Source of the DNA: Branchiostoma floridae
Taxonomy: Eukaryota > Chordata > Leptocardii > Amphioxiformes > Branchiostomatidae
Assembly: GCF_000003815.2 (NCBI RefSeq)
Contig: NC_049981.1
Location: forward strand, 1,947,973 to 2,011,972
Reading direction: 5' to 3'
DNA: 64,000 bases
In this document: piece after piece, positions 2,831 to 38,138 of the stretch
Position numbering within the stretch: the first letter of the stretch is position 1
Layout: each line of letters begins with the position of its first letter
Made by a program: the position numbers and the translations under genes
The notes under the pieces: model-generated
The model's database searches: none
What the model saw: the letters and a program-made list of their open reading frames with translations, nothing else
Told to the model about the DNA's origin: nothing

Positions 2831-2837
2831 TATTTTC

Positions 2838-5216: not shown

Positions 5217-5373
5217 CGATGATCCTCTGGTATAACGTGAATGTCACGTCAGCCTCTAGAGCCACTGGTAAACCCTCAAACAGTGATCGGGTTGCGATGC
5301 CACGTGTTCGCACCCACAGGTACTCATAGTGCTGGTCGACACGCTTCTGGAGACGTTCATCCACACCGTAGCA
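5217..5373 (-). CDS. Channel exon 25: C-linker of repeat III, last visible exon
   Basis: After the acceptor ctcatcgacag the phase-0 frame reads CYGVDERLQKRVDQHYEYLW and then RGIATRSLFEGLPVALEADV, the standard CNG C-linker pattern (helix, YYxYxW, then a LP...LxxDV segment). It connects directly to FAFLK of exon 24 over a 551-base intron. The donor is uncertain: gtttgt after 5217 (phase 1) is preferred, gtatcc after 5213 (phase 2) is possible. CNBD III is not found further left in the window. Confidence 0.82.
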
Positions 5374-8300
5374 CTGTCGATGAGAAAGTGAGAATATCCC
5401 GGGTAAGGCTTAGGTCCCAATTGAAAAAGGAGCCCTGCTGGGCAGGTCATCATCACTGGCTGTTTTTGACACTTTCGGGCGTGACCCTGCGTGGCCCTGT
5501 GGAATACCATGCGGCTCCCGGTGTATTTTTGGGCCCGGCCGAGCCCCGGGTTGAATTTAAGTTGGACCTAAAAAATGAACAAGGCACCGGTAACGGACAG
5601 ACGCCGTATGCTAATTATGAGCACACTGAGAGGTACCCCCTCAGTCCACCGGGACAAATTTGTGGCTTCGGGACCCGACCGGGGCTACATCCCTGACGGG
5701 CACCGGTGCACTGAGGACCAAAGTCTAACTTTGCAAATTGGGAATAACTAGCATAAAACCTCATGTGACAATTGACGCAAATTTGAACCATGAATGCGCC
5801 AAACATTGAGCGTGACAGAGGTTGAAAACTTAATTCGAAATGTCATGATCAGACGAAGAAGAACCTGCAAAATGTCTTTTTTTCTAGTACACAAGGGGAA
5901 ATGCTGAGGTCGCGACAGGTTTACCTTTAAGAAGGCGAAGATCAGCCTCAGTCTCTCCTGGTAGCGAGCGCGCTGCGCTGCCGCGTTGGCTAAGCTGGCC
6001 GCTACGCTGGCGACGATGTAACCATAGAACACGATTCCCACGATCTGAAGCAGGGCCATCAACACCATCTGTCGCAATGGAAGACAAAGGTAAGTGTCAT
6101 TCTGATTCATCATGGAAGCCCATCTGTATTGCCTATTGGTGGCGAACTCCACGGAACAAATTTGCAACGACCACAATCGCTTTCTTTCTCAGCAATAATG
6201 ACCAATCATGATCACTGCAAAACATGAACTCTCGAGAGTTACAGACACGTGATCTTATCAACAATCAACATGTGATCTTGCGGATACGTGATGTCAGCAA
6301 CCGGTCAAACGTGCCAGGAAGTTTATAAAGCCCACCGTCTCTGTTAACTTACTGACACCTTTCACCAATTAATGACGTCATGCATCCGTAAGACCACGTG
6401 TTGACAAGATCTCATGCCTACAAATCTAGCAAGCAGTCTGTAGCGATTGGTCATTACCGGGCCAAACAAACTGCCATTACGCCATACGACTCCACGCATA
6501 CTTTATGATCAACCCCGAAACCTGCTTGTACCTTTTAAATAATTCAAACCGACCTCATAATCCTTGTCTAAGCTGGCGTGCAAATCTCCATAGCCCACGT
6601 TGAGTGCCGTGGCGCATGCCCAGTACATGCTAGTGGCGTACATCTTGCCGTGTTCGTCTTCTTTGAAATCGTGCTCGTCCACCAACGTTCGGGCGATCCA
6701 GTTGTCCTCCACACAGGGTGTAGACAGAAAGGGCGGGCAGCCCATCAACCACACGACGCACGTGGTCCAGTGGGTGAAGATGAGTGAGTACAAGAAGAAC
6801 TTGACCTGTCTATAGCAAGCACAAAAGAACATTTGCTTGTCAATAATCATAAGTTAAACTTGCCGCGTGTCAAATGTGCAACACAACAACTAGTAGTGTC
6901 TTTGGAAGGTATGTCAGAAAGCAGTTACTCATTGACAAGCAACTGGATATGATTTTGGAAAAGGCCAGACGTTTCAGACAGCATCCACAATCTTTCGTCA
7001 GTGACACTTAGGAAAGCTGGTAGAAGAGCAGGTTTTATACCTTACCTATGAATCGATATGCAAAGGAGATGAAGACAAATAACGGATTGTCCAATAGGAA
7101 ACAAAAATAAGGCAAAGTCAAGACAAGGTTGATGCAATTTGACGATCCTGGGATTCTCACATTTTTTTATAAGTTAAATCAATTTGGTCGCTACTTTTAT
7201 AGTTTGTCGTTCGTTTTGCCACATAATCAATACAGACAATAGTCTTATAAATTCAAGACCTGATTAATCCAGTTTCGATCTCCACGTTGGACTCCAAGTA
7301 GTCAAAGAACAGCAGGAGGTTGTAGGCGATCAGCACACGGTTCAGCCTCAGAAGACCCACCAGAGCCATGAGGTCCGTGTAGTCCCACTGTGGACGGTAC
7401 ATGGTCAGAATTCATGGTCATTCAGAATTTGCAACGTAGAAAGAGTATTGCAAATTCTGGACTGAGGGCTAACTGCAGGTAACATGAAGGGGATGGATGA
7501 ATAAACGAAGTAGAACAAATAGCATGTGCCTACCCTAATTCAGGCCAGACTTCGACGCCACAAATTTGTCCCGGTGGACTGCCGGATATATCGGGGGTAC
7601 CCTCTGGTGTGCCTCACGGATATAGGTCACGTCGTCCATTTATTATGGGCCCCGTGCCGATTTTAACTGAGCCGAAAATAAGCACAACGGTCTGCTACTT
7701 TTAAAATGAACCCGTGGTTCGGCCGTACCCGCAAGATGTCCTATACGAGGCCACGTATAGGTTAGGACCGAAAGCCCCCCCCCCCCAAAAAAAAAACCCC
7801 AGCTCATTACCTGCCTGACAGGGCCCATTTTCAATTGGACATATATTTTGGCTAGCATGGGTACCATCTGGAAAGTAGTTAGCTCCGCATCCGGCGTTCA
7901 TTATATACTATATACAGTCGCTTCTAGCTCTGACATTCATTATACACTATATACAGTCCCTTCTCTGTGTTTCCGTCTGGGAACGCGGACCATCTTAACG
8001 TCTGGAATCGTCCAAATTTTGGAAGCAGGCGCTGATTGGTCCCTACACATGAGCGAAATATGGAATGGTTTCAAGCGCTCGTTCGAACAGACGTTCCAAC
8101 ACCGGACAAGCCCTCCGCCCGCTCGTGGGAGGCCTGTTGTCATCGAACAAGCGCTCTAGAACCTATTCCTAGATTCGCTCATTAACTGACGTTACCGCCA
8201 AACGGTTTGAATGCGCACATCTCCAGACGGATAGCAGAAGCGAACGTAGGAGCGAACTACTATCCGGATGGTACCCAGGCTATATTTTGGCCCGATAGAT

Positions 8301-11300
8301 GTTGTAATTAGCAAGTGTATCTAAGCAACGTAACTAAGAATGTCGTTACGAGGAGCATCTCAGGTTGTTACGAGGAGCATCCCAAGACCACATACGTACG
8401 TTTGTGATGAAGGGAATGGCCACCAGCTCAATAGGGAAGCTGGCCATGATGTCCATCAGGAAGTTAGTCTTGAGGTAATGTCTGGCAGTCTCCAGAGGGT
8501 GTGTCACCATCACGTGCTTATCGTTGTAGAAGGCTGCGTGCAGCTTGATGTACCTAGGCGACGGAAAAACAGGACCCGCCTGTTCTCACAAGCAATACAT
8601 AGGCATTTTGCTTTTGTTTGTATGCAACAAATCAAAGATATAACGTTAAGACCCATCAAGCAAATAGTGAAATACAAAATCATCAAACACAAATAATCAT
8701 ATCAGGGGTCGACCCACTGGACAGATCCACATGGAAGCGCGGTGTGAAGACTAGACAAAGCCGTTTGTTTGGTCTCCTAGGGTTAATGGACTAAACCTGA
8801 TAATTGTAAAACAAATCTACCGACAAATCAGTCATGCAATTAATAGTCTACTGTATATAGTCAACCCCAACTGTCCAATAAGGTGCACCAGGCCCGTCTA
8901 CGCCTGTTTGGTCACATTGCAAGGACAGAGCCACGGAAACAGCTGCCCTTCTGAGGAAACCGACCCTACTCAACTGGCCAGGCCCCAGGGGCCGTCCCAG
9001 GCATACCTAGCAAGAACAACTGAGGGACGACCTGAGGGCTGCCGGCCTCGACCTTAAGCTTACCACCGCCTGGGTGCTGGCCCTCAACAGACCTATGTGG
9101 AGATCTGTGTGTGCAGGCGCTACGCTCCATCCCGGAGAATGCGGACCTGAGTGAGTGAGTGTATATAGTTCGCATCATACCGGTATAACGTTGACTTACA
9201 TGTCCACGAAGTTGCAGACGTCCAGGCCGATGTTGATGCCGAATAAGGCCCAAGACTCGCGCAGCAGGGCGGCCTGTAACGTGTAGGTAAAGGTGGAGGC
9301 TGCCGCCATGAGCAAGCGCAAGCCTATCCACACACGGAACCACCTCCCAGAGGTCATGAAGGTGCGTCTGAAAGAGATAGAGAGATAGATTAGATTCTCT
9401 TGTCGATTTGACAGATGAGGAGGCAGACAGGCATTTGCCTGACCTGCACATGACTTTTTATGGTGAAGGAGGGGTGTGCAATTCCTTCTCCACCCTCTCG
9501 TCTATTGGAGCACTAAGTCTCACGGGGGCGACTGTATGCAACGTGTGAGGCGGCTCCAGTAGATGCAGCTTTGTTGTTCGGAGTATCCGTCACCTAGGAG
9601 GACTTCCGACCAAGGATGTAAGGGGTTCCTCCTACCCCAGACTCGTGTGTCATGGCGGGTGCGTCATGCCCGAACATGCCCCTAAGGCCTGTCTCGGCCA
9701 CAAAGGCCTGCCACTGCCACTAGCCGCAGCAGCTAGATACTCATTTACACCCGAGTTACGTGAGGAAAGAACGTTACAGAGAAGTCACGTGTTGAATCTA
9801 CATAACGTGACGTCACAGAAGCAGTGGATCGCTCATTCATTGACAAAGACTGGAGTTGGGCAGTTGGGATTTGGGGGTGAGTCCAATCTCTGTGTTGAAA
9901 ATTACAGTTTAACTTTGATCCAGGAAACAATAGACAATACCGTGGACAGGTTAGCCAATTTCGTTGATGAAGGTTAGAAATCTAGGTAATAAGAATCTAC
10001 CAAATAGCAGTTACTACTCAAGCAATTGGATATGATTTTGGAAATGGTCAGAAGTTTAAGATAACATCCGTTATCTTTCGTCAGCGACACTGAAGGGATC
10101 TCGCTGGAAGTCAGGTTTCCAAAATCATATCTTGTTGCTTGAGTAACTGTTATTTGGTGTATTTTATTATGTCTAACCTTCATCGACATATAAGACATAC
10201 ATCCGTTTATTGGAAATATAAAAAGTGAGAGTTCTTACCTCATCAGCAAATTGGACAGGATGCGAAGCGGTGTGCTCAAACGATGGAATGGCTCCAAGTA
10301 GTCTTTATCTCCCCCCAGCCCATCTGAGGGGAACTTGAAGACGGGCTCCGACTTTTTGCGGTGAAGACTGGGGAGATAAAGCGATTCCAGTTGATCATCG
10401 TCGGCCGTGGCGGCGACTTGGCTGAATGACCTGATCCGTGGCTTTGTTGGGCCTTCCGTTCCAATCTTACTCAACCGCAGCGCTTCGCGGAAGTCCTCCA
10501 TTTTGGACAGTTCGTGAAATTGCCTAGAAAAGACGAAAAACTATTCAAATATACATCATGCAATGGGCAGGATTCTGTGGGCGTCTGCCATTTATGATAC
10601 AGAAGTGCCAAGTGGAATTTTTAAAATGGGTCTTCGAAGAAAAACATTAATTACAATTAGCGAATCATCCACCAATAAACCAATGAACCAAGTGATAGTG
10701 TGATCATAATCAGCATGACCGGGAATCAAGATTCGTATGCAAGAAAACTTTTAACATACTTTTCAACGAGGGGATACTTCGAGAGCACATCCTCCAGGTC
10801 ATCTCGGGTCAAGATAATCAGCTCGACATATGTCCTGGATCGGATCGTGTCCGGCTGTTGGTCACCAAACAGCAGGGACAGCTGTCCGAAGTACTGACCA
10901 GGGCCCATGATACACAACGTCTCTGCCAGGTCATCCGTTAGTATCTATGGTGCGCAGTGACAGAGGAAGCAATTATTCCAGTAAGGTGAGTGGTAGGATA
11001 CAGGAGAATTACTTTGCACGACCAGTAACATACGTTCGCATAATTCCACCAGGTGCCATTATACCGCCACCTCAAAAAGCGTTGTTATAGAGGTCTTCTC
11101 AAGATTGTCTTCAACACCTAAATATCTGAATTGTATTACATTTAGGATATGTAACATTCGGTGTTCAAGACAATCTTGGGAAGACCTCTATACTAACATT
11201 TTTTGAGGTGGCGGTATTATAGCAGTCGATGTTATATACTTACTATGCTTGCGCTTCTGCAGTAACCGAGCATATTGCCAGGAACAATTGTGTAATTTTT

Positions 11301-14300
11301 TTTCTACTTTGCTCTTGGACAGACGAGGACAATGTGGCACTGCACTCAAGTTTTGTAACTTATATTAACAGTGCCACATACACGGCACAGACAGAAGGTA
11401 AAGATAGTCTTTTACCTCCCCGACCGAAGTCAGGTACCCATTTTTACACCTGGGTGAAGAGAATGAGGAAGGTCGTGTAAAGTGCCTTTCCCAAGGGCAC
11501 AACGGCGGGGGCACGGCGGGGATCGAACTCAGAACCTCTAGATTCCGAGCCGAACGCTCTACCAGTTACGCCACGCCCGACGCCATGTGTAATTTACTGA
11601 GAGGTGCCAAGGTCATAGACAGGAATACAACAGTCGAATGCCGTGGAATAAGGAGACGGTTCAGATAAGAAATTTTAAAGTCAACCCCAGTGATGAACCG
11701 GGACGGGGGAGATACAAACTTAGCCACGTTTGGGGTTCTATCTGCATAACGTGACGTCGCAGAAGCAGTGGATTGCTCTTTCATTGACAAAGACTGGAGC
11801 AAATAAAACGCGCAAAAGCGCCACCTACATCGGCTACATATAGCGGCGAGAAGCAGGAATCCAATTAGAAGCTCTGGAGAAGAGGTCTATAAGAGACACC
11901 GAAACGTAAGCAAAGTGAGTACATACTGGTTGTGTTAAGGAATTCTGCTATATCCCATATTCTATCAACCATATGAAATTATTTTGGAAGGTAAGAGACA
12001 GTTTTATGGCCCAGTTTAGGGAATCTACAGTCATTTTTTTTTCTTTCCATCTGCCACTGTCTCCAAAATCAATTTGATGTTCAATTGTTGCTCCAGATCA
12101 ATTGCGGGTACGATTGACCCATTTTCTTTTCGTCGTATCGCGCTTTGGAAATGAGTATTGTACAGTGAGTAAAAGAAACAGTCCTACTCACGAAAAATGC
12201 CCCTGCTATCCCAAAACTAGCCGCTAGCTAGGGGTCCCAAACTTATGTCATTTCTTTCTGAGCACAAGAGCTACCTAACGCCCAAAAATCGTGACCATAG
12301 CGTCTTCAGAACACGAGATAGCAAAATCGGTTGTGCTGCAGTACCAAGGTAAGCCGCTAGGGGGCCCAAAATCTACTCATTTCCAGCTTTCATCACACCC
12401 TACCAACACACCAAGTATGAATTATCTTTTACACACAGAGTTATCTTGTTGACAGACACACACACACACACACAGGCTAGTGAACGCTAGTGAAAATATA
12501 ACCTACATGACATTTCATGGAGGTAATTAAAGCCCAAAATTTAAAACGTTACTGGACTGATACCTCACAGTAGCCCTTCCGAATCATGTGCAGGTCACGG
12601 GTGATGTCTCCAGAATACACGATGACGTCACCGGGTGCGTACAGCACAGCGTGCGTGTTGACCGCCAACTCTCGCAGAAAGGAGGGATCCGTCTCCTGGA
12701 ACAGCGGGACCTGGGGAAACAAATTAAAGAAATCTTCATGTCATACTATCTTATGTGTTGAGATTACATAGGTTCAGCTAAAAGCCACCGTAACAAAAGT
12801 GTAACAAGTGCTTTTGAAAAAAAGCTTTGCCATAGCGAATAGTAGGGATGATTTGCTTGTCTGCTAGCATGCTAAATACATCTCCAGTATATCGCTCTTT
12901 GATTGCTACGTGCAAGTGTTGTTTCCAAACTGCCAATGATATTGGGAAGATCGTCAACTGATAGCTAAGATAAGATACGGTAGGTGCACGTGGTAGAGGT
13001 GGTTTTATGCGGTTGTAAAGTGCATCACCTTCAAACAGTACAGTTTCGGGATTTGAAATGACTGCAAGGGCACAGTGCACGGTAGCAATGGTTAGAATTA
13101 CATTAGAAAGTTCTAAAAGGGCAGCGATCGAAAGCTTTTATAAACTGAGAGCCATTCAATGAGCTACCACGAGTAGAGGCTGTTCGGAGGTGTTCTTTTC
13201 TATCAGATGCAACTGGGTACCCACGTACAGTGCGAGAGAGCCAGATATATGCCGAAGGATGCAATGCTTATCGCCCTCTGATCGAGCTACTTGATACAGA
13301 AGTGTTGGTATTCTTACTTCCGAAATATCTGCCCAGAAACAAAAGCAGTACGTGCCGACAGATTTCAATTAGAAGGGCAAAACTTACAGGCTCTCAATTA
13401 GGGACTACACAGCTCCCGCCTCGTTTTGGTGCATGACCTTGGATGGCCCAAAATGGCTGCCGTTTCTGGAATAGGATCTATTGCTGTCGACGCAGTGGGG
13501 TCTGTTTTGGCCAATGATGCATAAACCTCGCCTGCTTACATACAATACCAAGGGAAGAGGATACTTTCTTGCATGGCAAGCGAAAAGTGCCTCACCTGCT
13601 CCAAGACTTCTTTCGCCTCTTCGAAGGCGACGTCCTGTTGTAAGGCGACAGGCATGTCGTGCATGAGACCCATGGACCCAGCTACCTCCTCGCCTCTGGA
13701 ATGAAAAACGCCAAGCCGAATCAACCCACAAGAACGTGAGATGACGTCATGTAGCTACCATCTGCATATATTCCAACAACATAGAATAACAGTCCGTTGT
13801 AGGTAGCTTCGGAGTTCATGAAGCTTTAGTCGACAAACATATATCAAGTAAACCATAAACTTAAGGTACATACGCACGCTACCGCGCCACTCTCGCACCG
13901 ACGTTTCGATAATAATAATAAGTTTATTGCAAATTCTTGCCCGAGGGCTAATTGCGAGTGACAGAATGACAGGCAAATGATGCTAAGCAGTATAGTAAGC
14001 GACTACTCAAGTCTACCTTAAACTAGTTAAAGATGTATTGGGTTTTACTTCTTTTTCTGAGACAGTGGAAGACGAAAGATCCCACTTTTTCTGTAACGTG
14101 TGGGTTTTGCGACGTTAAAAGTAGAGTAGTTTTCTTTTTGTCTGTAAACGTGGAGATATGACCGTCTGTCACCTTCTTCAAGGCAATTCTGACCGTTTCA
14201 CATTGTACTGCAGCACTAGGTGTCGCTGCTTCCAGTTCCAATGCGGTGACAAACGCACGGACTGTTTTATGTGAATCTATTAACAATGCTGTCCCAAACG

Positions 14301-26300: not shown

Positions 26301-29300
26301 GGGCCCCGGATTCATTTTAAGTCGGGATCAAAATTGGCCCGGTAACCGTGACCTGCACCCAGGTACACCGAGGGGTGTCCCATGGTATCCGGCAGTCCAA
26401 TCCGGAAAATTTCTGGCTTCGAAGCCCCGGCCGGGACTACGTATACATCCCCAGTGGGATCCGTGCAATTGGAACCAAAGCCTAAATTGTCAAGCAAAAG
26501 ATGCTACAGCATTTGCACAGTACATATATATGGTATTCCTTCTGACCTTGTGAAATTTGATCAGCCTGTTCAGTTTGAGACAGGCGACAAGTCCGAGGCG
26601 GACGGTGCCAAGATGTGGCGATGCCAGGGCGAAGAGCTCGATCGGCAGGATGCTGCACAAGTCCAGTACAAAACTCCAGCTCCGGACGTAGTGCGTCCTG
26701 ATGGAGTCCCAGTCTGTCAGGATTCCTGTGGTCCAAGATATCAGATACATGATCACTGCACCCAAATATCCGGGAATGTTTGGACCCTGGAACTGCATTC
26801 AAATTTTCGGGAATTTCAGGACCCTGGAACACCCGTGAAACTAGACATGTACGGGTCTTGTCCAGGTACATACGGAAATTTCAATGATCGGACACACAGG
26901 CCGGGGAACTTTCTATACACAGCCCGGAAATGTCAAGTATCACGGGGTCGTCAGGGTTCCCCAGACATTCCCGGAAACTTGCGTTTTCGTGCAGTGGATG
27001 GTATGTAAACTTCGCACTCTATTATAATTACAGTGCCCACTGATGATATTGTTTGATAACGAATGAAGAATTAAACATAGTACATAGTATTCCGTATTTC
27101 CGGAGAGGTACCAGCCCGGACGCGGGTCGGATCGCCCGACAGCCGAAGGTCGGGACGTGATCCGGCCAGCCTAAGGGCTGAGACCGAGAATGTCGAAAAT
27201 AAAAAAAAAATGATGAGCTTCCATTATATAGTAATGTTTAGTGATCTCACCATTCGGTGTGAAGATCCCAGTCCTGAGCCTGATGACCACATCCAGCAGC
27301 AAAGGGACGTCCAGCAAGTACGAGACGATGAACCCCGAACTGCCTAAGGCCCAGACGGGATTGGCGCCCGCCCTGCGAACAATTTACAGAAACACATACA
27401 AAGCTAGTTCAGCGGGAACGTCAGTGCAATGATTCAGATATCTGACAAAGGTCGGCGAGATAAACTGAAAATTCATGATGTGTGTTTTCTTTGTGTTGGG
27501 ACAAAGTGTTTGTGTTGATCCCATGCGGCTCCCGGGATATATTTACGGCCGGGACCCGGGTTCATTTTAAGTCGGAATCCGGGACGCGGTAATAAATAGC
27601 CACCGTGACCTACCCGTGTGGAACACCGAGGGGTACCTCCCGGTATCCTTCAGTCCACCGGGACGAACTTGTGGCTTCGGAGCTCGGTCGGGATACATCC
27701 CTGACGGGCACCGGTACAATTGTGACCTAAGCCTTACCTAGTGACATAGAAGGCGGCGAGGTAGCTGTGGCTCATGCAGACGGCAAAGGTCGTGATGATG
27801 ATGAAGATTTCCCAGCCGCGACAGAAGATGGAGGTTGGGTCCAGCACGTGGGATGCTAACCACTCAACCACGACAAGGCACTTCAGTCTGAACCACTGTG
27901 GCGACAGAAAAAGGACACATCAAACTTTCCTAATATCTTGATAGTCAACAGATATTTACTCCCGGAAAAAAAACTAACGTCTCTAAGTCTCTACCAGGCT
28001 CCCACCTGGCTGAATAGTAATAGGGGACTTTGGTCAAGTTTGGAATTAAAAGCTAAAAGTAGGAGTTAATCGGCCAAGGAGTGAACTGACTGGCCGGCGG
28101 ATAGCTGGATAGACTGCAAAAGACTGGCAACTTATTCTTCGTCTTTTTTTAAAATCCAACTGACACGTCTGCTTGGAGAGTAGCGCGGGCTGGCGTATTC
28201 ATCTATTTGTTGAATAATAGGTGGCAATTCGAATTCGTTTCAACAAGTTTACTTTCTGCATTTACAGAAGCAAAGTGAGAACAGATTTCAATAGCATCCA
28301 TAAATCCCAAACCTCAGCGTCATGCCTAGTGTTGAGTTAAAATACGTCGACGTCACATTTCCAAACCGGGGCCCGGCCGGGCAGCGTTCGGGCACGAAAA
28401 GTATAATATAAAAGACACCAGGATACCCAAGGCGTAAAGAAGAAAGTCGTGGCATTATTTGTGTATATCTTTACGCCTTCATGTCTATTTTTCGTTTCGA
28501 CAAGCAGCCCGGCCGGGCCACAGTTTGGAAATGTGACGTTAGCCATGTTATGGGTGGCCATTCAATTCAACAATTTTACTTCCTGCAATTGCAGTACAAA
28601 AACAAAGTGATTAGGACATATTTCAGTGGCATCTAAAAATCCCAAACCTCAATGCTAAGTTAAATTGTGTTACATTTAACTTACGGCGCAAATGGCTCCC
28701 TCCTCTACGGACGGCGCGAGCTGTGCGTTGAGAATCTCCACTGATTCACTGAGCTTGATGGACTTCCTGGACGCACCACGAGAGGCGCGGCGCGCTTCCG
28801 CGAGAGGACGGCTCCCGGCGCGCGCACCTTCCCCTGTGCTGTCCTCCTTTTCCTTCACAGCAGCGAAAAAGGAGCCTCTTGTTGCCGGGTCCTCGTCGAT
28901 AGAGTCTCTGTGACCGGTCATTGGGTCCGTGGATGGCTTCCGGAGGGACAACCGTCTGAGGGCAGAGGCGCGGCGAGTTGACACTGCAGAACTCACAGCT
29001 TCCGCTAGAAGAAGAATGAATGAACTTTATTCTAAGACAATTGTACACTGTAGGACGACAACTTTTACAGCAACTTCCCGCAGCGATGGACGACAAAGAG
29101 GGGTGGAGGATACTAGTTATGCGGAGATTCCGAGCTCGCTCGCCGGGTGCGCAAAGTGCAATATGAAGGTAAAACTTAACACCCTAATTACTATAGCAAT
29201 AAGGGGTAGTTTTGAAATTATGTTTCAATCGAGTGGGGCTAATCATGAGTGTCGGATTTTTTCTTATAAAAAATTGAAAACTGCCTGTATAATTTTGCCT

Positions 29301-32300
29301 ATGTCTGCGTTGAATAAGTTGTTGCAATGGGAGATATATTCAAATCTGTCTGTAGCATTTAGTCTCTTGAAATTTGTTGCACTTTATTCGAGAAATGTGA
29401 ATAACCTATGACGTAAAACATTATATCTGGAACATCCCGCGACAAAGAAGAATTTAGGTCACAGCTAGTAAATTCTATGGATGACACGACGCCAAGATGA
29501 ACGAGAGAGGGCGAAATATAACAAGATAGGTAAGAAAAAACAATCTAGATTTTCAAAATAGACACCTTAAAATTTGTAACAAGAATCGAAGCGACAAAAC
29601 ATGTATCACAGTTAACAAGTCTTTTATTTCTGCATTCAAGAGGCTCACAAATACAACTCCGCCCGGCAACAAACTTGGACCCGGGCCAGTAGAACAAGCT
29701 TGAAGACATACCAAGGCAAACAAACAAATAAACAAACAAAGGAACAAACAAACTGAAAACAAATAAATACTCCTGATGAGATACAATGGATTTTTTGCTT
29801 TCTTTTGGTCAAGTTGATTTGGGTTCCCTTTGTTGTGCTTCTCTCGTTATAAATAGCTTCGAATTCTATCTGACATTGAGGGTACTGCATAGAAAACCTA
29901 ACAAAGCCCATGGGCACGTATACTAAGAGTTCGCGGTAACTTACGGACAACATAGTACGGATTTTGCCCCGACATCGCTATCACGGCAAATTCCATTTCA
30001 CAGCATACTCCCTTCTTTGGCAAACTCCCTTTCCCGGCACAAGTGAACCCAGCCAACGTTGAAAATCGCGGACCCCCCCCCCCCATAAAACCAGCCCCGT
30101 TCAAAGACTGCAACGGAGTCTACGGAATGTATCAATCCATACCTCCCTGTGCGTCCTCGCTAGTTCCTGAGGCCAGATGTCCAAACATACCCTCTGTGCC
30201 CACATCAGTGAGCCCATACAGCGGCGAGTCGGGAGAGCCGAAGCGCTGGACAGCCATCTCGTGTAGTCGCTTCATGACTGAAACATGTGCACAGAAAACC
30301 GTGACGTAATCAACCTGTGTACCATCTTGGGTGAGAATTTCGCGCCCTTTCCTAGAGACATTTTTCATATCAACATAATATACAAAATTGTTATTACAAA
30401 GAACTTTATTTTCTGGAGTGACCTTTTATTTTGAGAAGGCTCAAAATATCAACAAATGAAAAATTTATATTGCACGAAAAATCAGATTTCCAGGAATTTC
30501 TGGGCCCCCAACACACCCGTGATATTGACATGTCCGAGATGTATGCATGCATTTACTCTTTCTTGATATTTCTGTATATTCCAGGAAATTTGAGTTTTCC
30601 TACAAAGTTATGCTTTAGACTGCCAGATTCCGGCGTCTTTGCCTGACATACGATGAATTAAGATACGATTGTATGATTGATTTCTTTCCTAAAACAGGGC
30701 GATGTGAAACAAATTTTACACATCTAACGCGGAAAGTAGAAAACGTTGTTCGTACCGTCAGGATAGTGGTTGAGAATGATGTGCAGGTCTTTTTTCTCCA
30801 GGACGATCAGGTCACAGTTCGTGGCGGCGCGAATGGAGGCCGTACGCGGGACGTTGAATATCAAACTAAGCTGTGGAAGAGGGGATGGCACACGATCAAA
30901 TGTTACCCCGATAAAACGCCATTTCTATCGTATCCGGAAATTTCCGCTGTAGCCGTTAGAATATCTTGCCGTACCCGATAATTTCCGCTGTGCCCGTCAA
31001 AAAAATAAAAAATAAAAAACTCGCAGTACCTGGTGCACTTCTGCAAACAGTGGCGAGCTCTGCGCAGACTGCTTGTTACCAAACTTTGCGGAGGTTTTCT
31101 CAACATTGGGCGTGACTTGTATAACGCAACTCAGTAGAGAGTTGGTCAGAGGTGCATGTATATAGGCTGTATGAGACTGTGTATCATTGCCTTACATGGT
31201 ATTTATATAAGACATTCGTGTGAGTACGCCCTGTGGCCGAGCGATGACGGCAGAGAAGGACAGGGTACGGCGAAAATTACCGGGCACGAGGAGATTTTAA
31301 AACGGGTACGACGAGATTTTTAGGGGTACGGCGGAAATTACACAGAACGTTACGGTAGAAAAGTAGTTTAATGTGGCTTTCCGGTTCTTCGCTCTCTGAA
31401 AACAAACAAATGAATCTACAGCACATGAGTCGCGTGGTTTGCTTGCATCAGCTCAACGCAGCTCATCCAAACTTAGCGTTTCATACCAACGTGCATACTG
31501 AACATGTACGTGCATACATTCCAACAGAATGGCTAGATGTCCATATACGTACCTCTCCGAAAACCTTTCCATGTTTAAAGGTAGCCAAGGGCGTACCGTC
31601 CTTAGAAACCACCTGGAACAAAGACAAGCACGAGAGATACAGTTAATTTAACGGTGGTGCACTTTCAACAAACGTGTAGCAATCTTACATTAAACAATGT
31701 TGTGGTACAAGCGGTAAGGTGTTTGGCCCAACCCCAGTGGTCCCGGGTTCAAAACACTGATGTGCCCCGATGTCGTGCCCTTAGGACTCACACCAAGAGT
31801 GGAGTAAAGAAAAAAAAATGAATGAATGAATGAAGACCTTTATTGCACGTTTTGCCCTTCTGGGCTAAGTACAGGTCACATGGAAACAATCATAAACATG
31901 TAAACAATGGGGAATAACCATACACATCTGTATATGCATATATACGTCTAATCTTTTCTAGGACATTCGACTTCCTCTCGCTTCTTGGTTATAAAAGTAA
32001 AGAAAAAATAAAGTCGTGAGTCGTGTAAAGTACATTTCTAGAGCTCGACATCGTTGCATGTCAGTGATTTAGAACCCTGGATCTATGGGTTCTGAATCAA
32101 ATTATCACGCCATCCGGAGCCAAACGCAAATCAATTGTATTGATTTCAGCTGTATGATAAGGCCACGGGAACTAAATTTCACGGATAAGACATCGCTCGC
32201 TCGAATTTTCGCCTGATTTGAAAATAGTAAATAAAAGGGAAAATATATCATGTAGTTGCATTGATTGTGCTGTACAANNNNNNNNNNNNNNNNNNNNNNN

Positions 32301-35300
32301 NNNNNNNNNNNNNNNNNNNNNNNNNNNNNNNNNNNNNNNNNNNNNNNNNNNNNNNNNNNNNNNNNNNNNNNNNNNNNNNNNNNNNNNNNNNNNNNNNNNN
32401 NNNNNNNNNNNNNNNNNNNNNNNNNNNNNNNNNNNNNNNNNNNNNNNNNNNNNNNNNNNNNNNNNNNNNNNNNNNNNNNNNNNNNNNNNNNNNNNNNNNN
32501 NNNNNNNNNNNNNNNNNNNNNNNNNNNNNNNNNNNNNNNNNNNNNNNNNNNNNNNNNNNNNNNNNNNNNNNNNNNNNNNNNNNNNNNNNNNNNNNNNNNN
32601 NNNNNNNNNNNNNNNNNNNNNNNNNNNNNNNNNNNNNNNNNNNNNNNNNNNNNNNNNNNNNNNNNNNNNNNNNNNNNNNNNNNNNNNNNNNNNNNNNNNN
32701 NNNNNNNNNNNNNNNNNNNNNNNNNNNNNNNNNNNNNNNNNNNNNNNNNNNNNNNNNNNNNNNNNNNNNNNNNNNNNNNNNNNNNNNNNNNNNNNNNNNN
32801 NNNNNNNNNNNNNNNNNNNNNNNNNNNNNNNNNNNNNNNNNNNNNNNNNNNNNNNNNNNNNNNNNNNNNNNNNNNNNNNNNNNNNNNNNNNNNNNNNNNN
32901 NNNNNNNNNNNNNNNNNNNNNNNNNNNNNNNNNNNNNNNNNNNNNNNNNNNNNNNNNNNNNNNNNNNNNNNNNNNNNNNNNNNNNNNNNNNGGGTCCAGA
33001 AATACTTGTAGTACTTTATGATCTGTCGCTGCTGCGTCTCGGGGATGTCCTCCTCAATCTTCAAGATGACAAAACGAAACAAAACAAAACAAAGCAAAAC
33101 ATCAATCAAATCAATAGAGATATGGACAGGGCAACAACTGTGGTACGGAACTGTGGTACGTAAATATTGCAATTTGTACTTATGTGTGTACCCAGGTTCC
33201 CTGAAAAGCAGTGCCCGATGAAATGTGTGCCAGCCTTTCAACGGAGCTGGAGTCTACGACAGGAAGAGAAGTGTCAAGCTTCGTTTGTACGCGTTACTCA
33301 ATATCTGATTGGTTGAACGCCCGTGCAAACCACGTCTGGAATACCGTCCAAATTCCAACTTGGCGTAGTTTCTACGTATCTCAACATAGTTAGAACAAGG
33401 ATTTTTTGTATACTCGAACTGATTGATTGATTTTATTCTGCACTTTCAAAAATGATAACATACAGAAAATTATAGAAAACAACAGAACGTGCAGGGGGGG
33501 GGGGAGCCATGTGGCTTATACAAACTCTTCCCCCGTCGAAATTTACAAATCATGATACAATTAAATGGATATGAAGATTGAACTGTACAGCAATATGTGA
33601 AAATGTCAGCTTAGCACATACCAAATATTGTTTGATGGTATCGAGGCGATGTGTGAACTGGGCGCGTTGGGAGTCCATATTGGTCAGCATTGAAGTCATG
33701 CCGCCGAGAATCATCCCGAAAAACACCGCTACACCCGCCAACATGGCTGCGATAGAGTACGCCTTTTCACTCAACGACTTGGCGTGGATGTCACCGTATC
33801 TGCAAGAAAGAAAAGAAAAGACAATGACATGTAAATCGTATCCGCATGTGAAGGCTAAACTTTAATGTTCACTGAATGATATCATTCTTGTCACAGATAA
33901 TAAGAAAATGTTGTACTCTGGTGTCATAAACACTTTAAACGAAACAAAAGTTCAAACACAGCTGTCTAGTTCCTACCCTGTAGAGGTGGACGTTGCTGTG
34001 GCCCAGTACATGGAAATTACATATTCGTAGCCGGTGTCGTTGTTCGGAAACAGAATGTCTGCACCTGTACAAAAACAAACAATATACTGTACTTGTAAAA
34101 ACGGCCTTAGCAACGATATTGCAAATTAATGATGGTAGATGTATCATCCTTCACACGTTTGTATTTCCAAAGTTTGATATGCAGGGTATATGATACGGAG
34201 GGTAAGTCTAACTCGTCAGGCAAGGACCCATAGGTAATGTGAAGAAATGCATGATGTTGGAAAATAAAGTATATATTTTGGAGATTTTAGATTGTCGTCA
34301 TGGATGTCATATCCAAATAATCAAATCAACATCTTATGATTTTGTTTGTTTGTTTGTTTATAATGATTATGGTACGTACGTTCATTCGGCTCAGTCCATG
34401 TTTCGTGTTCACACTCTTCCTGCATGCCCCAGTGCTTGCCCGTACATCCCAGCGCGAACCATCCGCAGGCCATGAGGTGTAGACACAGCCAGGACACCGC
34501 CGTGTACTTCATAGTGCGGATATACTCCGTCTTCAAGCCGAGCTCCATCTCCAATATGTCTGATACAGAACAGAGACATATACTGTAGTGAAGGGCGTGT
34601 TGAAAGTGTGTTGAATACAAGTACATAGAACTAGAAAGTAATTCTCCGTTTTTGTAGAGATTAAATTGTATTGGAATACAGTATTGTTCACCTGAATGTT
34701 TAACATTCACAAACGTACGTACACATAATGCTGATTTTTTTTTTTCTGCACAACACACGCTGTTCTATTTCATTCTAGTAGATGAGGCACTATTGTGATA
34801 TGAAACGCACTTACCGAAGAAAGTCTGAACTCTATACATCCTCAGAAGACGATTCAGTTGAAACAATGCCATCATTTTCCAAAACGACTCCCCTGGAACT
34901 CCAAAGGCAATCAGTTCTATCGGCAAGAGGGAAAGAAGGTCGACGGCAAACGTTCGTCTCATGTACCGCCGTCTGATGAGCTTGAGGTCGGTCACCGGAA
35001 CCCCGTAGTCAAAGTACACGTAGAAGAATTGTAGTACGATGTCCGAGAGGTACAATGCGTCGAAGATGTACGTGAGGACCCATAGCTCTGTGTGTCTGGA
35101 CTCAAACGATACCTTGAAAGTGCCGATGCAAGCCGTCGCCACACATGTTATCGCAATGATCGCCTCCCATACTCGGGACGCATTGGTCATAGGGTAAATG
35201 TAAGTCCGAAGTAGCTTCCTCTTTTCCTCCGGGCGGTCGGTTGGGTGGACCGGAGCGGCTCCATCGGATGGGGTCGGTAGTTGTCCCCCATCCCGGTCGG

Positions 35301-35316
35301 TCCGGACCTGCGCCAT
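5217..35316 (-). CDS. Multi-repeat cyclic-nucleotide-gated K+ channel (tetraKCNG/CNGK type), 25 visible exons, 3' end outside window
   Basis: One gene encodes successive six-TM channel repeats, each with a GYGD filter and a C-linker/CNBD. Exons, 5' to 3': 35316-34815, 34559-34380, 34064-33977, 33799-33622, 33058-(gap), 31612-31553, 30870-30756, 30277-30143, 29004-28685, 27895-27738, 27372-27251, 26725-26547, 19201-19041, 17915-17673, 14447-14331, 13695-13596, 12710-12564, 10944-10760, 10523-10239, 9367-9200, 8553-8400, 7387-7260, 6809-6554, 6068-5925, 5373-about 5217. Phases match at every junction checked. About 1,450 codons are visible. The start ATG has A at -3 and G at +4. The family is known from sea urchin sperm, where four repeats in one chain form a cGMP-activated K+ channel that hyperpolarises the flagellum. 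Three repeats are seen here; a fourth is inferred beyond the left edge. Part of repeat I is lost in an N gap. Confidence 0.88.
5505..5735 (+). repeat. GC-rich dispersed repeat, copy 1
   Basis: Shares ordered blocks with 26285-26490 and 27520-27740 (same strand) and 7545-7760 (opposite strand): CATGCGGCTCCCGG, GAGCCCCGGGTTGAATTTAAG, CAGTCCACCGGGACAAA, TGTGGCTTCGG, ACATCCCTGACGGGCACCGG. It sits in channel intron 24. No coding capacity. Confidence 0.65.
5925..6809 (-). CDS. Channel exons 23-24: S5, pore and S6 of repeat III
   Basis: Exon 23 (6809-6554) holds S5 (FFLYSLIFTHWTTCVVWLMG), a long acidic turret with three cysteines, and the pore MYWACATALNVGYGDLHASL. Exon 24 (6068-5925, 48 codons) holds S6 (LMALLQIVGIVFYGYIVASV) and ends RLRLIFAFLK in phase 0. 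The filter core GYGD is present, but the preceding TST of repeats I and II is LNV here. Confidence 0.9.
6228..6345. repeat. Dispersed repeat paired with 41560-41660
   Basis: The reverse complement of this stretch and 41560-41660 share GAGACGGTGG, TATAAACTTCCTGG, CACGTATCC and GATCACGTGTCTGTAACTC in the same order. It contains several CACGTG-type sites. It lies in the intron between channel exons 23 and 24. Confidence 0.6.
7260..9367 (-). CDS. Channel exons 20-22: voltage sensor S1-S4 of repeat III
   Basis: Exon 20 (9367-9200) contains S1 (VWIGLRLLMAAASTFTY) and the start of S2 (FGINIGLDVCNFVDM). Exon 21 (8553-8400) continues S2 and holds S3 (TNFLMDIMASFPIELVAIPF). Exon 22 (7387-7260) holds S4 (LMALVGLLRLNRVLIAYN) and FFDYLESNVEIETGLIR. 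S4 keeps only two arginines. Phases 2-2, 2-0 and 0-2 fit. A second possible donor 4 bases downstream in exon 21 is excluded because it breaks phase. Confidence 0.88.
7545..7760 (-). repeat. GC-rich dispersed repeat, copy 2 (inverted)
   Basis: Reverse-orientation, more diverged copy of the family at 5505, 26285 and 27520. CCACAAATTTGTCCCGGTGGA and TTTTAAAATGAACCCG are the clearest shared blocks. It lies in a channel intron. Confidence 0.55.
7855..8280. mobile_element. MITE-like element with TA flanks, family also at 36383
   Basis: The left end GCATGGGTACCATCTGG and right end CCGGATGGTACCCAGGC are inverted repeats, each flanked by TA. The 426-bp body matches 36383-36704 in opposite orientation, including TATACTATATACAGTCGCTT, CGTCTGGGAACGCGGACCAT and CTCCAGACGGATAGCAGAAG. 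No transposase frame is visible, so it is non-autonomous. Confidence 0.75.
8876..9165 (+). mobile_element. LINE-type retrotransposon relic, C-terminal fragment
   Basis: The plus strand reads VHQARLRLFGHIARTEPRKQ, a stop, then LNWPGPRGRPRHT, a stop, and further on DDLRAAGLDL and ALNRPMWRSV. This is the usual C-terminal signature of endonuclease/reverse-transcriptase retrotransposon proteins (RLRWxGHIxR...GRPRxTW...DL...RPxWR). It is broken by stops and a frameshift, sits in channel intron 20 and is antisense to the gene. Confidence 0.65.
9967..10184. mobile_element. MITE-like inverted-repeat element, family also in three other channel introns
   Basis: The ends are GATGAAGGTTAGA and TCTAACCTTCATC. 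Inside them are GCAATTGGATATGATTTTGG and, facing it, CCAAAATCATATCTTGTTGC. The core CATCCGTTATCTTTCGTCAG recurs at about 6945-7020, 18225-18310 and 19265-19450. The element abuts exon 19 on its 3' side. No coding capacity. Confidence 0.7.
10239..10523 (-). CDS. Channel exon 19: linker between repeats II and III
   Basis: The exon reads on from the CNBD II C-helix (QFHELSKMEDFREALRLSK) into a polar linker (RIRSFSQVAATADDDQLESL). It ends in a sequence typical of the approach to S1 (DYLEPFHRLSTPLRILSNLL). It is 95 codons, phase 2 in and phase 2 out. No domain beyond the channel linker is seen. Confidence 0.85.
10760..14447 (-). CDS. Channel exons 15-18: C-linker and CNBD of repeat II
   Basis: Exon 15 (14447-14331) and exon 16 (13695-13596) form the C-linker (SVVRQFMKDHEICPNLRRRV, then LQQDVAFEEAKEVLEQ). 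Exon 17 (12710-12564) starts VPLFQETDPSFLRELA and carries the first CNBD strands (APGDVIVYSGD...MIRKGYCE). Exon 18 (10944-10760) carries YFGQLSLLFGDQQPDTIRS and the helix LTRDDLEDVLSKYPLVEK. At the phosphate-cassette position where repeat I has PRTAS, this repeat has PDTIRS, so the key arginine appears to be replaced by Asp. Confidence 0.88.
11062..11216. mobile_element. Palindromic MITE-like element with TTA duplication
   Basis: About 60-bp inverted arms run inward from TACCGCCACCTCAAAAA (left) and TTTTTTGAGGTGGCGGTA (right), continuing through TATAGAGGTCTTC and CAAGATTGTCTTCAACACC. TTA flanks both ends. A three-base TTA/TWA duplication is typical of PIF/Harbinger-derived elements. It lies in the intron between channel exons 17 and 18. 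Confidence 0.75.
11415..11582 (-). mobile_element. tRNA-derived SINE fragment
   Basis: Read on the minus strand from 11582, the sequence has an A-box-like GGCGTAACTGGTAGAGCG, then a B-box-like GAGTTCGATCCC, then GTGCCCTTGGGAAAGGCACT. The same order appears in the element at 48190-48602. It lies in a channel intron. It is not a functional tRNA because the arms do not pair well. Confidence 0.65.
12455..12476. repeat. (CA)n microsatellite
   Basis: A short uninterrupted run of CA dinucleotides in the intron just downstream, in the gene sense, of channel exon 17. Confidence 0.85.
13910..13972. repeat. Dispersed short repeat (retrotransposon 3'-tail-like)
   Basis: AATAATAATAAGTTTATTGC followed by AAATTCTTGCCCGAGGGCTA and ATTGCGAGTGACA. 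Near-identical sequence is at 38657-38720 and 35780-35835, with looser copies at 31836-31885 and, inverted, 54640-54672. The family may be a retrotransposon 3' end. Confidence 0.55.
15241..15937. mobile_element. Foldback / Harbinger-like MITE, 697 bp with TTA duplication
   Basis: The ends mirror each other for about 38 bases: CCCCGTTCATACTAGGATTC at the left and GAATCCTAGTATGAACGGGG at the right. Inner inverted blocks continue the fold (CTTAAGTATCGTTTGC / GCAAACGCTACTTAAG, and GCAACGGGCTGCGTCG / CGACGCAGCCCGTTGC). TTA occurs directly outside both ends. Sub-terminal copies of GAATCCGGATATATCC repeat within each arm. No transposase. It lies in the intron between channel exons 14 and 15. Confidence 0.8.
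16700..17345. repeat. Degenerate tandem repeat, unit ~142-152 bp, about 4 copies
   Basis: CAAGTTCAAGCACYAGGAGG or a close variant recurs at about 16751, 16898, 17050 and 17192. It is followed each time by CCAAAATCAAAMCTGA, a CACC-rich stretch and CCGGAAATACAGCGC-like sequence. A run of G marks the left edge. Plus-strand open frames here follow the repeat and are not considered genes. It is intronic. Confidence 0.75.
17673..19201 (-). CDS. Channel exons 13-14: S5, pore and S6 of repeat II
   Basis: Exon 13 (19201-19041) begins LTTFFSKMEESLTKDIF and contains S5 (LKLFTYIILIIHWCSCLLY). Exon 14 (17915-17673) contains the turret CVEGGWVDHLGLAG, the pore helix YFVSLYFTAATM, the filter TSTGYGD and S6 (VLAMAVMIVGLLLCGYCV). 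The filter is canonical for K+. Junction TG|G (Trp) and end GCC AG (phase 2) both match. Confidence 0.92.
18225..18312. repeat. Copy of the ATGATTTTGG...CTTTCGTCAG intronic repeat
   Basis: Contains GGATATGGTTTTGGAAATGA, CATCCGTGATCTTTCGTCAG and TGACACTGAAGAGATCTTG, matching the core of the element at 9967-10184. The flanking inverted arms are not clear here. Confidence 0.6.
18683..18762. repeat. Short tandem repeat, ~29-bp unit
   Basis: TACTCAGTACATTATTTGTG followed by GTACACATG is repeated about two and a half times with a period of 29. It is intronic, between channel exons 13 and 14. Confidence 0.8.
19945..20170. repeat. Dispersed repeat shared (inverted) with 34085-34285
   Basis: GCATTTCTTCACATTACCTA, CCTTGCCTGA, GCATATCAAACTTTG, GTGTGAAGGATGA and ATATCGTTGCTAAGGCCGTT occur here. 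The same blocks occur in the same order on the opposite strand at 34085-34285. Both copies are in introns of the same gene. Confidence 0.65.
22104..22745 (+). pseudogene. Degenerate LINE reverse transcriptase (CR1/Jockey-like)
   Basis: The plus strand reads NKFQSGFRPAHSTTTTLIHV and AVFLDLKKAFDTV, the conserved RT fingers and palm start (GFRPxxST, DLKKAFDTV). A frame change follows, then DRKQTTVVNGVASDF, another frame change around the expected GVPQGSVLGP block, and after a deletion the C-terminal RYRGVCQWNHLPMTL. The catalytic YADD region is missing. It is a dead, internally deleted copy in the long channel intron. Confidence 0.8.
22788..24030. mobile_element. TA-flanked DNA element (1,243 bp), TIR CAGTCAAACCTGCCC
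   Basis: It starts CAGTCAAACCTGCCCGAGCG and ends GTCTTGGGCAGGTTTGACTG with TA immediately outside both ends, the pattern of Tc1/mariner-type insertions. Sub-terminal copies of CAGCGACCACCTG occur at both sides. No intact transposase frame is visible. Shorter relatives lie at 35536-35629 and 57659-57836, and a truncated one begins at 44067. Confidence 0.78.
24541..24800. repeat. Two-copy tandem repeat (~180 bp apart)
   Basis: AATTTCAGGTCATTTGGTTT, then a ...ACCARGGYACAGGAGC... block, AAAAAAT and a CTAAAAATK run occur twice in direct orientation. It lies in the long channel intron and is non-coding. Confidence 0.65.
26285..26490 (+). repeat. GC-rich dispersed repeat, copy 3
   Basis: Contains GGCCGGGCCCCGGATTCATT, TTAAGTCGGGATC, ACACCGAGGGGTGTC, GGCTTCGAAGCCC and ACATCCCCAGTGGGATCC in the same order as the copies at 5505 and 27520. 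It lies just 3' (in gene sense) of exon 12. The long plus-strand frame from 26382 comes from this repeat plus antisense exon 12. Confidence 0.6.
26547..27895 (-). CDS. Channel exons 10-12: voltage sensor S1-S4 of repeat II
   Basis: Exon 10 (27895-27738) holds S1 (WEIFIIITTFAVCMSHSYLA). Exon 11 (27372-27251) holds S2 (FIVSYLLDVPLLLDVVIRL). Exon 12 (26725-26547) holds S3 (SWSFVLDLCSILPIELFAL) and S4 (LGLVACLKLNRLIKFHK). Phases 0-2, 2-1 and 1-0 link exactly. S4 has one arginine plus lysines and a histidine. The last donor is gtcaga, a weak but valid GT site. The next exon is 7.3 kb away. Confidence 0.88.
27520..27737 (+). repeat. GC-rich dispersed repeat, copy 4
   Basis: CCATGCGGCTCCCGGGATAT, GGGTTCATTTTAAGTCGG, AGTCCACCGGGACGAAC, TGTGGCTTCGGAGC and ACATCCCTGACGGGCACCGG mark this copy. 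It abuts the donor side of channel exon 10. Confidence 0.65.
28351..28538. mobile_element. MITE-like inverted-repeat element, GC-rich arms
   Basis: The left end CGTCACATTTCCAAACCGGG and right end TTTGGAAATGTGACG face each other. The arms continue with GCCCGGCCGGGC on both sides and GGCGTAAAG / CTTTACGCC further in. About 188 bp, non-coding. It lies in the intron between channel exons 9 and 10. Confidence 0.75.
28685..29004 (-). CDS. Channel exon 9: Ser/Arg-rich linker between repeats I and II
   Basis: The exon follows a good pyrimidine tract (ttcttctag) and joins in phase 1. It is low-complexity, basic and serine-rich, with RRASALRRLS near the start and EARRASRGASRKSIKLS further on. These are basophilic-kinase (PKA/PKG-like RRxS) consensus sites. 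It ends LAPSVEEGAICA in phase 0. The reading frame is open throughout and its phases fit both neighbours, which supports it as coding. No folded domain is recognised. Confidence 0.8.
30143..31612 (-). CDS. Channel exons 6-8: CNBD I, distal part, and following segment
   Basis: Exon 6 (31612-31553, 20 codons) reads VVSKDGTPLATFKHGKVFGE, ending at the conserved FGE of the phosphate-binding cassette. Exon 7 (30870-30756) reads LSLIFNVPRTASIRAATN and on to LHIILNHYPD. It keeps the PRTAS arginine that contacts the cyclic phosphate in known CNBDs. Exon 8 (30277-30143) begins VMKRLHEMAVQRFGSP, the C-helix region, and continues into a Gly/Ser-rich stretch. Phases are 0-0, 0-1 and 1-1. Confidence 0.87.
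31700..31900 (+). repeat. SINE-like relic with retro-tail
   Basis: GGTGTTTGGCCCAACCCCAG and GTGGTCCCGGGTTCAAAAC resemble a decayed tRNA-type promoter. TGCCCTTAGGACTCACACC, a GAATGAATGAATGAA run and CTTTTATTGCACGTTTTGCC follow. It lies in the intron region next to the N gap. Confidence 0.45.
32278..32991. other. Assembly gap (714 N)
   Basis: The run of N begins at 32278 and ends at 32991. The length may be an estimate. By comparison with repeat II, the gap should hold the rest of C-linker I and the first CNBD beta-strands. Open frames written across the gap are artefacts. Confidence 0.98.
32992..33058 (-). CDS. Channel exon 5 (partial): start of C-linker I, cut by the sequence gap
   Basis: The acceptor ...cttgaag is followed in phase 0 by IEEDIPETQQRQIIKYYKYF, the typical start of a CNG/HCN C-linker helix pair after S6. 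The exon runs into the N block, so its 3' end and the first half of CNBD I are not visible. Confidence 0.85.
33622..34559 (-). CDS. Channel exons 2-4: S5, pore and S6 of repeat I
   Basis: Exon 2 (34559-34380) carries S5 (TAVSWLCLHLMACGWFAL) and the acidic turret ending TEPNE. Exon 3 (34064-33977) carries the pore helix YVISMYWATATSTSTG. Exon 4 (33799-33622) completes the filter GYGD and carries S6 (AYSIAAMLAGVAVFFGMILG). The intron between exons 3 and 4 falls inside the codon of the first filter glycine (GG|A, phase 2). The TSTGYGD filter is K+-selective by family knowledge. Exon 4 ends in phase 0 right after DTIKQYL. Confidence 0.9.
34085..34285. repeat. Dispersed repeat shared (inverted) with 19945-20170
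   Basis: Second copy of the repeat described at 19945. It carries AACGGCCTTAGCAACGATAT, TCATCCTTCACACGTTTG and TAGGTAATGTGAAGAAATGC. It sits in the intron between channel exons 2 and 3. Confidence 0.65.
34815..35316 (-). CDS. Channel exon 1: N-terminus and voltage-sensor S1-S4 of repeat I
   Basis: The exon opens with a short cytoplasmic N-terminus (MAQVRTDRDGG...) and no signal peptide. Hydrophobic segments follow in order: S1 around WEAIIAITCVATACIG, S2 around LWVLTYIFDALYLSDIVLQF, S3 around FAVDLLSLLPIELIAF and S4 with FQLNRLLRMYRVQTFF. S4 keeps three arginines. The exon ends TTC G before GTAAGT-like gtaagtgc (phase 1), and the next exon completes Asp. The whole voltage sensor is in one exon, whereas repeats II and III split it into three. 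Confidence 0.92.
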
Positions 35317-37489: not shown

Positions 37490-37735
37490 CAAACAGCGTG
37501 TACTCGTTCCACAGAGATTCACGAGAATCAATCATACACTGACTACCAAACACACAGTGTACTCGGTCCACTGAAATATTCCCGAGAATCATACACTAAC
37601 ACACTCTGTGTCTTGTTCACTGAAAGAATTCCGAGAATCATAACACTAACATACACCGTGCACTCAGTCCACTGAAAGAATCCTGAGAATCATACACAAT
37701 CATACACGCGGTGTACTTGGTTCACTGAAACTTTC
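37490..37735. repeat. Minisatellite array A, ~50-59-bp unit, about 5 copies
   Basis: Units contain TACTCGGTCCACTGAAA and TTCCCGAGAATCATACAC, starting near 37501, 37560, 37611, 37661 and 37713. They are the reverse complement of the units in array B (38139-38425), with more divergence. Confidence 0.75.
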
Positions 37736-38138
37736 GCGGGAACTTTTCTGAGTCTCGCGTCTGATTGGCTAGCAATGATGTAATCGTCTTGTGCAGCAGC
37801 GACCCTACCGGCTAGATATGGTACTGCTGGTAACGCTGTTCCCCGGAAATCGGACTTTACAAAATGCTGCATATTTTCTTTATTATTAGATGTTGTGTCC
37901 TAAGAAATCTCACATGGCTAGTAAGTAACACCTAGATGATAAGTAGTATCAATTTGTTTTATTTCATTGCGGTATTTCGCCGAAAACAAGGGCTTTTGAA
38001 ACGGCGTTTCCTACCTATTCATTATTGTTCTTAACACCAAAGCGTTCGGAAGTCGGTGTTCGGCAAACTTCGGGTGATTTCGGCAAGCGTTCGTATGTGT
38101 GATTCTTTGGAATGGACAGCGTGTATGTGTAACCGCTA

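Follow-up and report, generated by a model that had tools for sequence, protein, structure and literature searches.

Introduction

Four-domain Nav/Cav channels have a Na+/Ca2+ filter and no CNBDs. CNGK channels are a rare kind that has already been described, and the sea urchin representative, CNGK or Sp-tetraKCNG, was reportedly treated in Galindo 2007 and Boenigk 2009. In the described CNGK form, four repeats are carried on a single chain, and the sea urchin channel is opened by one cGMP bound at the third CNBD (PMC4749565). The zebrafish channel, DrCNGK, is opened by pH; the Arg of its second CNBD is lost, and its third C-linker contains a 42-residue insert (PMC4749565). The repeats of CNGK channels have been paired as 1 with 3 and 2 with 4 (PMC7576140) and have been described as nearly identical, with no turret specializations (PMC6259924).

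A channel of this family from Branchiostoma floridae, a species with 19 chromosomes (PMC7269912), has been listed as BfCNGK, XP_002592428.1, by Fechner et al. 2015 (PMC4749565), and the Branchiostoma floridae CNGK was also used in the tree of PMC8835908. An amphioxus CNGK is therefore no discovery as such. In the text available from PMC4749565, no discussion of the pockets or turret of BfCNGK, or of a second gene, was found. Likewise, in the main text of the available CNGK/tetraKCNG literature, as distinct from figures and supplements, no mention was found of two amphioxus CNGK genes or of a lost third pocket.

Gene model

The stretch of DNA analyzed, here called the window, was 64,000 nucleotides long and spanned C3:1947973-2011972, with window position w being C3 position 1947972 + w and negative positions lying to its left. 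A minus-strand gene of about 52 kb, which by its sequence is very probably a four-repeat CNGK (tetraKCNG) channel, ran from the ATG at window position 35316 leftwards to a stop at -16786. It comprised 39 modeled exons (25 within the window, from 35316 to 5217, and 14 to the left of it) and at least one more in an assembly gap. The protein had 2198 visible residues, and about 90 were estimated for the gap, giving roughly 2,290 in all.

The automatic model was a dynamic program using splice sites and codon usage, begun at ATG 35316 and run through the window and beyond. Splice weights were generic. The codon table drew on eight loci in this genome and was noisy, since for the three of them with minus-strand matches (L002, L003 and L005; 526 of 3214 codons) the wrong strand had most likely been used. 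The boundaries of 32 of the 39 exons were identical in the automatic and final models (23 of 25 in the window and 9 of 14 to its left). The automatic model omitted exon 5 (33058, running into the gap), replaced 5373-5217 with 5567-5318 in a different frame, contained one zero-length artifact and did not include the filter and S6 of repeat IV, both of which were placed by hand. The remaining exons were also set by hand under phase constraints, with the final window exon ending at 5217. The frame of the model is open by construction; none of the 39 modeled exons required a frameshift or a stop, and 171 stops were counted in the two alternative frames of these exons.

Exon 1 (34815..35316, minus strand; automatic model, refined, with a Pfam Ion_trans match) contained the start ATG, the N-terminus and S1-S4 of repeat I. 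Exons 2 to 4 (34559-34380, 34064-33977 and 33799-33622, within 33622..34559, minus strand) encoded S5, the pore and S6, and exons 3 and 4 were of equal length in a second CNGK gene on contig C4 (see below). Exon 5 (32992..33058, minus strand), which was set by hand and is not in the automatic model, started C-linker I, which was visible up to IEEDIPETQQRQIIKYYKYFWT and then entered an assembly gap of 714 N at 32278..32991. The frame of repeat I could not be followed across this gap. At the matching position, the C4 copy contained the rest of the C-linker, in which no intron was visible, and an open frame for the first CNBD half. The gap in the window gene should therefore hide the remainder of exon 5 together with one or more exons for the initial half of CNBD I. 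Exons 6 to 8 (31612-31553, 30870-30756 and 30277-30143, within 30143..31612, minus strand) encoded the second half of CNBD I, with the pocket FGELSLIFNVPRTASIRA and a Pfam match, and the C-helix.

Repeat II followed on the same strand. Exon 9 (28685..29004) encoded the cytoplasmic linker from repeat I to II, and 57 of 104 residues were identical in the C4 copy. Exons 10 to 14 (27895-27738, 27372-27251, 26725-26547, 19201-19041 and 17915-17673, within 17673..27895) encoded S1-S6 with TSTGYGD, and exons 15 to 18 (14447-14331, 13695-13596, 12710-12564 and 10944-10760, within 10760..14447) the C-linker and CNBD II; both groups had Pfam matches, and the C4 copy had exons of equal length for all five and all four, respectively. 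Exon 19 (10239..10523) encoded the cytoplasmic linker between repeats II and III, which was identical to that of the C4 copy at 52 of 94 residues. Exons 20 to 24 (9367-9200, 8553-8400, 7387-7260, 6809-6554 and 6068-5925, within 5925..9367), also matched by Pfam, encoded S1-S6 of repeat III with LNVGYGD, the first two being of equal length in the C4 copy. Exon 25 (5217..5373), set by hand, encoded C-linker III.

Left of the window, still on the minus strand, CNBD III was encoded at -7996..-8117, -8805..-8950 and -9380..-9603, S1-S6 of repeat IV at -10323..-13864, and the C-linker, CNBD IV and stop at -14343..-16786. Three candidate features of this part were rejected. An apparent insert in CNBD III resulted from reading past an exon end and was removed by the phase-correct splice from -8950 to -9380. 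For repeat IV, a mini-intron was rejected, as was an alternative S6; the splice adopted instead gave a filter-to-S6 spacing about 1 residue below that of the other repeats by manual count. An extra last exon of the automatic model was dropped, the open frame stopping at -16786, which matched the C-terminus in the C4 copy.

The four repeats were supported by Pfam, with Ion_trans E-values of 3.9e-23, 7.9e-18, 4.4e-12 and 2.9e-28 and cNMP_binding E-values of 1.4e-8, 4e-14, 4.8e-13 and 1.5e-13 for repeats I to IV, all passing the respective cut-off. The CNBD I match covered the second half alone (profile positions 34-88 of 89). GYGD was present in all four filters (TSTGYGD in I, II and IV, LNVGYGD in III). 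The filter of repeat I was split by an intron (TSTG|YGD), and a strict motif scan of the window caught the filter of repeat II only. Each of the four repeats showed an S1-S6 unit, a GYGD filter, a C-linker and a CNBD fold, the last being partial in repeat I, and coding linker exons joined the repeats. A genome-wide Ion_trans search (513.4 Mb, 431 contigs) scored 150 of its 399 candidates, and the window gene was absent from the resulting list. The best matches in the PDB were AKT1 for the membrane part of repeat I and SthK for CNBDs II-IV, and the C-linker/CNBD units of II, III and IV aligned with SthK. No chain named CNGK was present among the best 60 of the 112, 145, 125 and 160 matches of the repeat I membrane part and CNBDs II, III and IV, respectively.

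A preliminary description had proposed three S1-S6 repeats on one strand of the window, each with GYGD and a C-linker, and both the exon model and Pfam bore this out. It had also joined 25 exons in frame from one ATG; the exon count, the ATG at 35316 and the end at 5217 stood, and the unbroken frame did not, since the 714-N gap interrupts repeat I. Repeat IV had been expected past the left edge. Extension into the 40-kb left flank located CNBD III together with the whole of repeat IV, including its TSTGYGD filter, on the same strand and phase-compatible, in 14 more exons ending at the stop at -16786, and the case of a missing fourth repeat raised in that description was not observed.

The weak splice sites of the model include the donors 5217, 7260 and -13217 and the acceptor -13737. 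The weakest join is that of C-linker III to CNBD III, whose donor, 5217, scored -2.2; the next exon was about 13 kb away, past satellite DNA and a 2.1-kb N run. Long introns such as this one (5216 to -7995) and that in repeat II (26546-19202) could hide promoters, and the repeats are just 24-31% identical, as could be expected if the locus were instead a tandem series of single-repeat CNG/HCN-like genes encoding one subunit each. However, the inter-repeat linkers were coding exons whose phases fitted both neighbors, and the C4 copy retained two of the three linkers (29004-28685 and 10523-10239); the remaining linker was not detected where the C4 copy has a 6,488-N gap. The CNGK family, moreover, has been described as four-repeat chains (PMC4749565). 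Separate genes are therefore very improbable. The four Ion_trans matches lay in one exon chain that was phase-consistent except at the 714-N gap in repeat I.

Several repeated sequences were observed in and around the gene. The C-linker III-CNBD III intron contained a run of 2099 N reaching as far as the left window edge. Next to it, in the same intron, lay a tandem array (222-base unit, 12.8 copies, window 1-2832), and similar translations occurred further left of the window. Two more long arrays with repeated open translations lay left of the CNGK gene, at about -18600 to -21600 and -28400 to -35900. Short repeats with similar translations (...CPWERHFTR...) were present at window positions of about 11400-11580 and 48400-48600 and in the left flank at about -8930 to -9200; one of them came after a CNBD III exon and led the automatic splice model astray. 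Tandem arrays were also found at 38137-38425 (51-base unit) and 37552-37730 (52-base unit).

Other coding sequences were present on the minus strand of the window. A single-frame rhodopsin-type GPCR of 474 residues from stop to stop was located at 41962-43386 (Pfam 7tm_1, E 3.6e-43). Open frames at about 48600-61900 resembled exons of a multi-domain extracellular protein; among four tested by Pfam, two matched von Willebrand D and one calcium-binding EGF, and one had no match. A reverse-transcriptase-like open frame was found at 62410-63723 (Pfam RVT_1 below the cut-off), and its C-terminal part may be GIY-YIG-like, as in Penelope elements. No tRNA or Rfam matches were found within the 64-kb window.

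Ligand pockets

In a cyclic-nucleotide pocket, Glu contacts the ribose and Arg contacts the phosphate. The four pockets of the window gene were aligned among the repeats, and those of II-IV were also aligned against SthK. They read FGELSLIFNVPRTASIRA (FGE..PRTASIRA) in CNBD I, FGQLSLLFGDQQPDTIRS (FGQ..QQPDTIRS) in CNBD II, FGYMHVMLKEPWEFTVRA (FGY..PWEFTVRA) in CNBD III and IGEMSLTYSLPRRRSVRA (IGE..PRRRSVRA) in CNBD IV. The visible half of CNBD I was canonical, with Glu, Arg and Thr kept, and CNBD IV kept Glu and Arg. In CNBD II, both Glu and Arg were changed to Q, and the Thr was lost too. The CNBD III pocket, FGYMHVMLKEPWEFTVRA, differed from that of SthK, FGEMALILRAPRTATVRA, at three pocket positions, with E changed to Y, R to W and T to E.

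These substitutions indicate that the ligand pockets of CNBD II and III are probably dead, and cGMP at CNBD III would therefore not open the channel, unlike in the sea urchin. In a comparison with SthK, rather than with the sea urchin sequence, an intact cyclic-nucleotide pocket, as needed for sea-urchin-type cGMP gating, was not found in CNBD III. Sea-urchin-type gating might be kept if cGMP were held at CNBD III by other contacts after the loss of Glu and Arg, and the CNBD III unit indeed aligned to SthK over its full length, ungapped over the pocket. This is unlikely, given the three replacements at positions aligned to SthK and the statement that the pocket Arg is crucial for binding (PMC4749565). 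The amphioxus CNGK is accordingly predicted, from its pocket residues, not to be switched by cGMP at CNBD III.

Second CNGK gene

A second CNGK gene was found on another chromosome, at C4:17599709-17620124 (L013-L016), on the plus strand, with an ATG at 17599709 and a stop near 17620124. When the genome was searched with repeat II, all 70 candidates were scored and 31 matches were obtained, and identity above 55% was found only in the C3 gene and at about 17.60-17.62 Mb of C4. The genome has at least two CNGK genes, a number that is a lower bound based on the repeat II search alone.

With the phases of the window gene imposed, 22 of the 39 exons could be placed in the C4 copy, 15 of them at equal length. 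The identity between the two genes was 866 of 1154 residues, or about 75%, over the placed exons. Both the I-II and the II-III linker exons were retained. For exons 22-24 of repeat III, no counterpart was detected in the C4 copy; the sequence there runs into a gap of 6,488 N, at the expected site of most of repeats III and IV. The pockets visible in the C4 copy were similar to those of the window gene, with a canonical visible half of CNBD I, QQPDT in CNBD II and PRRRSVRA in CNBD IV.

Over 716 codons in the 15 equal-length exons, dN was 0.097, dS was 0.594 and dN/dS was 0.16; the calculation left out exon 1, seven placed exons whose lengths differed (N gaps cut two of these) and the 16 exons unplaced in the C4 copy. 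Values for single exons ranged from 0.07 (exon 8553) to 0.77 (exon 31612, 20 codons of CNBD I). The exon with the CNBD I pocket (30870) had a dN/dS of 0.12, and CNBD II exon 10944 had 0.10, its apparently dead pocket notwithstanding. By these rates, the pair appears to be an old duplication in which both genes have been constrained for most of their time.

The degeneration of two of the four ligand pockets and the load of tandem repeats in the introns could also be attributed to decay of a non-functional gene copy, the window gene having been freed by the second one. Such decay has only a slight chance of being correct: the 39 modeled exons contained neither a frameshift nor a stop, the dN/dS was low both over the 15 exons and in CNBD II exon 10944, and a change of frame was instead detected in exon 1 of the C4 copy.

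Repeat history

The pairwise identity among the four repeats was 24.0-30.6%. The best tree, with three fragments of other channels from the same genome as the outgroup, paired II with III at a support of 42-55. The AU test left the pairings unseparated, with P values of 0.31 for 1-3/2-4, 0.53 for 1-2/3-4 and 0.57 for 1-4/2-3. Two C-linker introns were common to repeats II and IV in exact position and phase, and no other exact pair was found among the visible introns, those of repeat I in the gap being unseen. Repeats III and IV had one intron position in common, with a different phase, and repeats I and IV had adjoining intron positions in the turret. The sharing of introns by II and IV is consistent with, but does not prove, the 2-4 pairing of PMC7576140.

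Repeat IV differed from the other repeats in its turret. The 46 residues before its pore helix, with boundaries set by hand, included 21 Glu, 3 Asp and 7 His. This stretch is of low complexity, and its length may vary; it is not visible in the C4 copy because of the gap there. With repeats that are 24-31% identical and one long, acidic turret, the window gene does not fit the statement of near-identical repeats in the available text of PMC6259924.

Discussion

The locus is best read as one gene encoding one chain, a pseudotetrameric CNGK K+ channel in which the pockets of CNBD II and III would be dead and which would be opened via CNBD I, perhaps via CNBD IV, or by a non-nucleotide trigger. 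We assign this reading a probability of roughly 0.88. The family assignment, which the preliminary description had also made, was upheld and fits the CNGK/tetraKCNG descriptions in PMC4749565 and PMC8835908.

From what is described for the family, the four pore loops would together shape a single K+-selective filter, and the C-linker/CNBD units of all four repeats would make up a gating ring. In the window gene, CNBD II and III would most likely have a structural role in that ring. The trigger may act at CNBD I, whose visible pocket residues are canonical, and perhaps at CNBD IV, or may be a non-nucleotide signal such as pH, as in zebrafish. By analogy with other members, the window gene is probably expressed in sperm. 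There, opening of the channel would cause K+ efflux and hyperpolarization, to be followed by Na+/H+ exchange and Ca2+ entry through CatSper. CatSper, sNHE and sAC have been reported in amphioxus (PMC6660944), indicating that the downstream sperm pathway is present.

A further-reaching scenario is offered tentatively, at somewhat less than even odds. The cGMP switch at CNBD III may have been lost while purifying selection on the channel continued, with control moved to CNBD I, possibly together with IV, or to a non-nucleotide signal. The gene would also have been duplicated, giving a basal chordate two CNGK channels with a trigger unlike that of the sea urchin, and the Glu/His-rich turret of repeat IV might sense extracellular divalent metals or pH.

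The window gene resembles Nav/Cav channels in having four 6TM repeats per chain and differs from them in that every repeat has a GYGD filter, a C-linker and a CNBD. BfCNGK, XP_002592428.1, belongs to the same family and may be the window gene on C3 or the C4 copy. As in DrCNGK, the pocket Arg of CNBD II is lost in the window gene. CNBD I and IV have no obvious abnormality in DrCNGK, and both keep Glu and Arg in the window gene. In repeat III, DrCNGK has an insert in the C-linker, whereas no such insert was seen in the window gene and the pocket itself is altered.

The sea urchin CNGK is similar in its four 6TM-CNBD repeats on one chain and its GYG/GFG filters. In contrast, the sea urchin channel is opened by cGMP at CNBD III, a domain that lacks the pocket Glu and Arg in the window gene. 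In this known kind of channel, the trigger changed between the sea urchin (cGMP, one site) and fish (pH). A cephalochordate gene whose third site is apparently dead, and which has one canonical pocket and a duplicate on another chromosome, may represent a testable step in this change.
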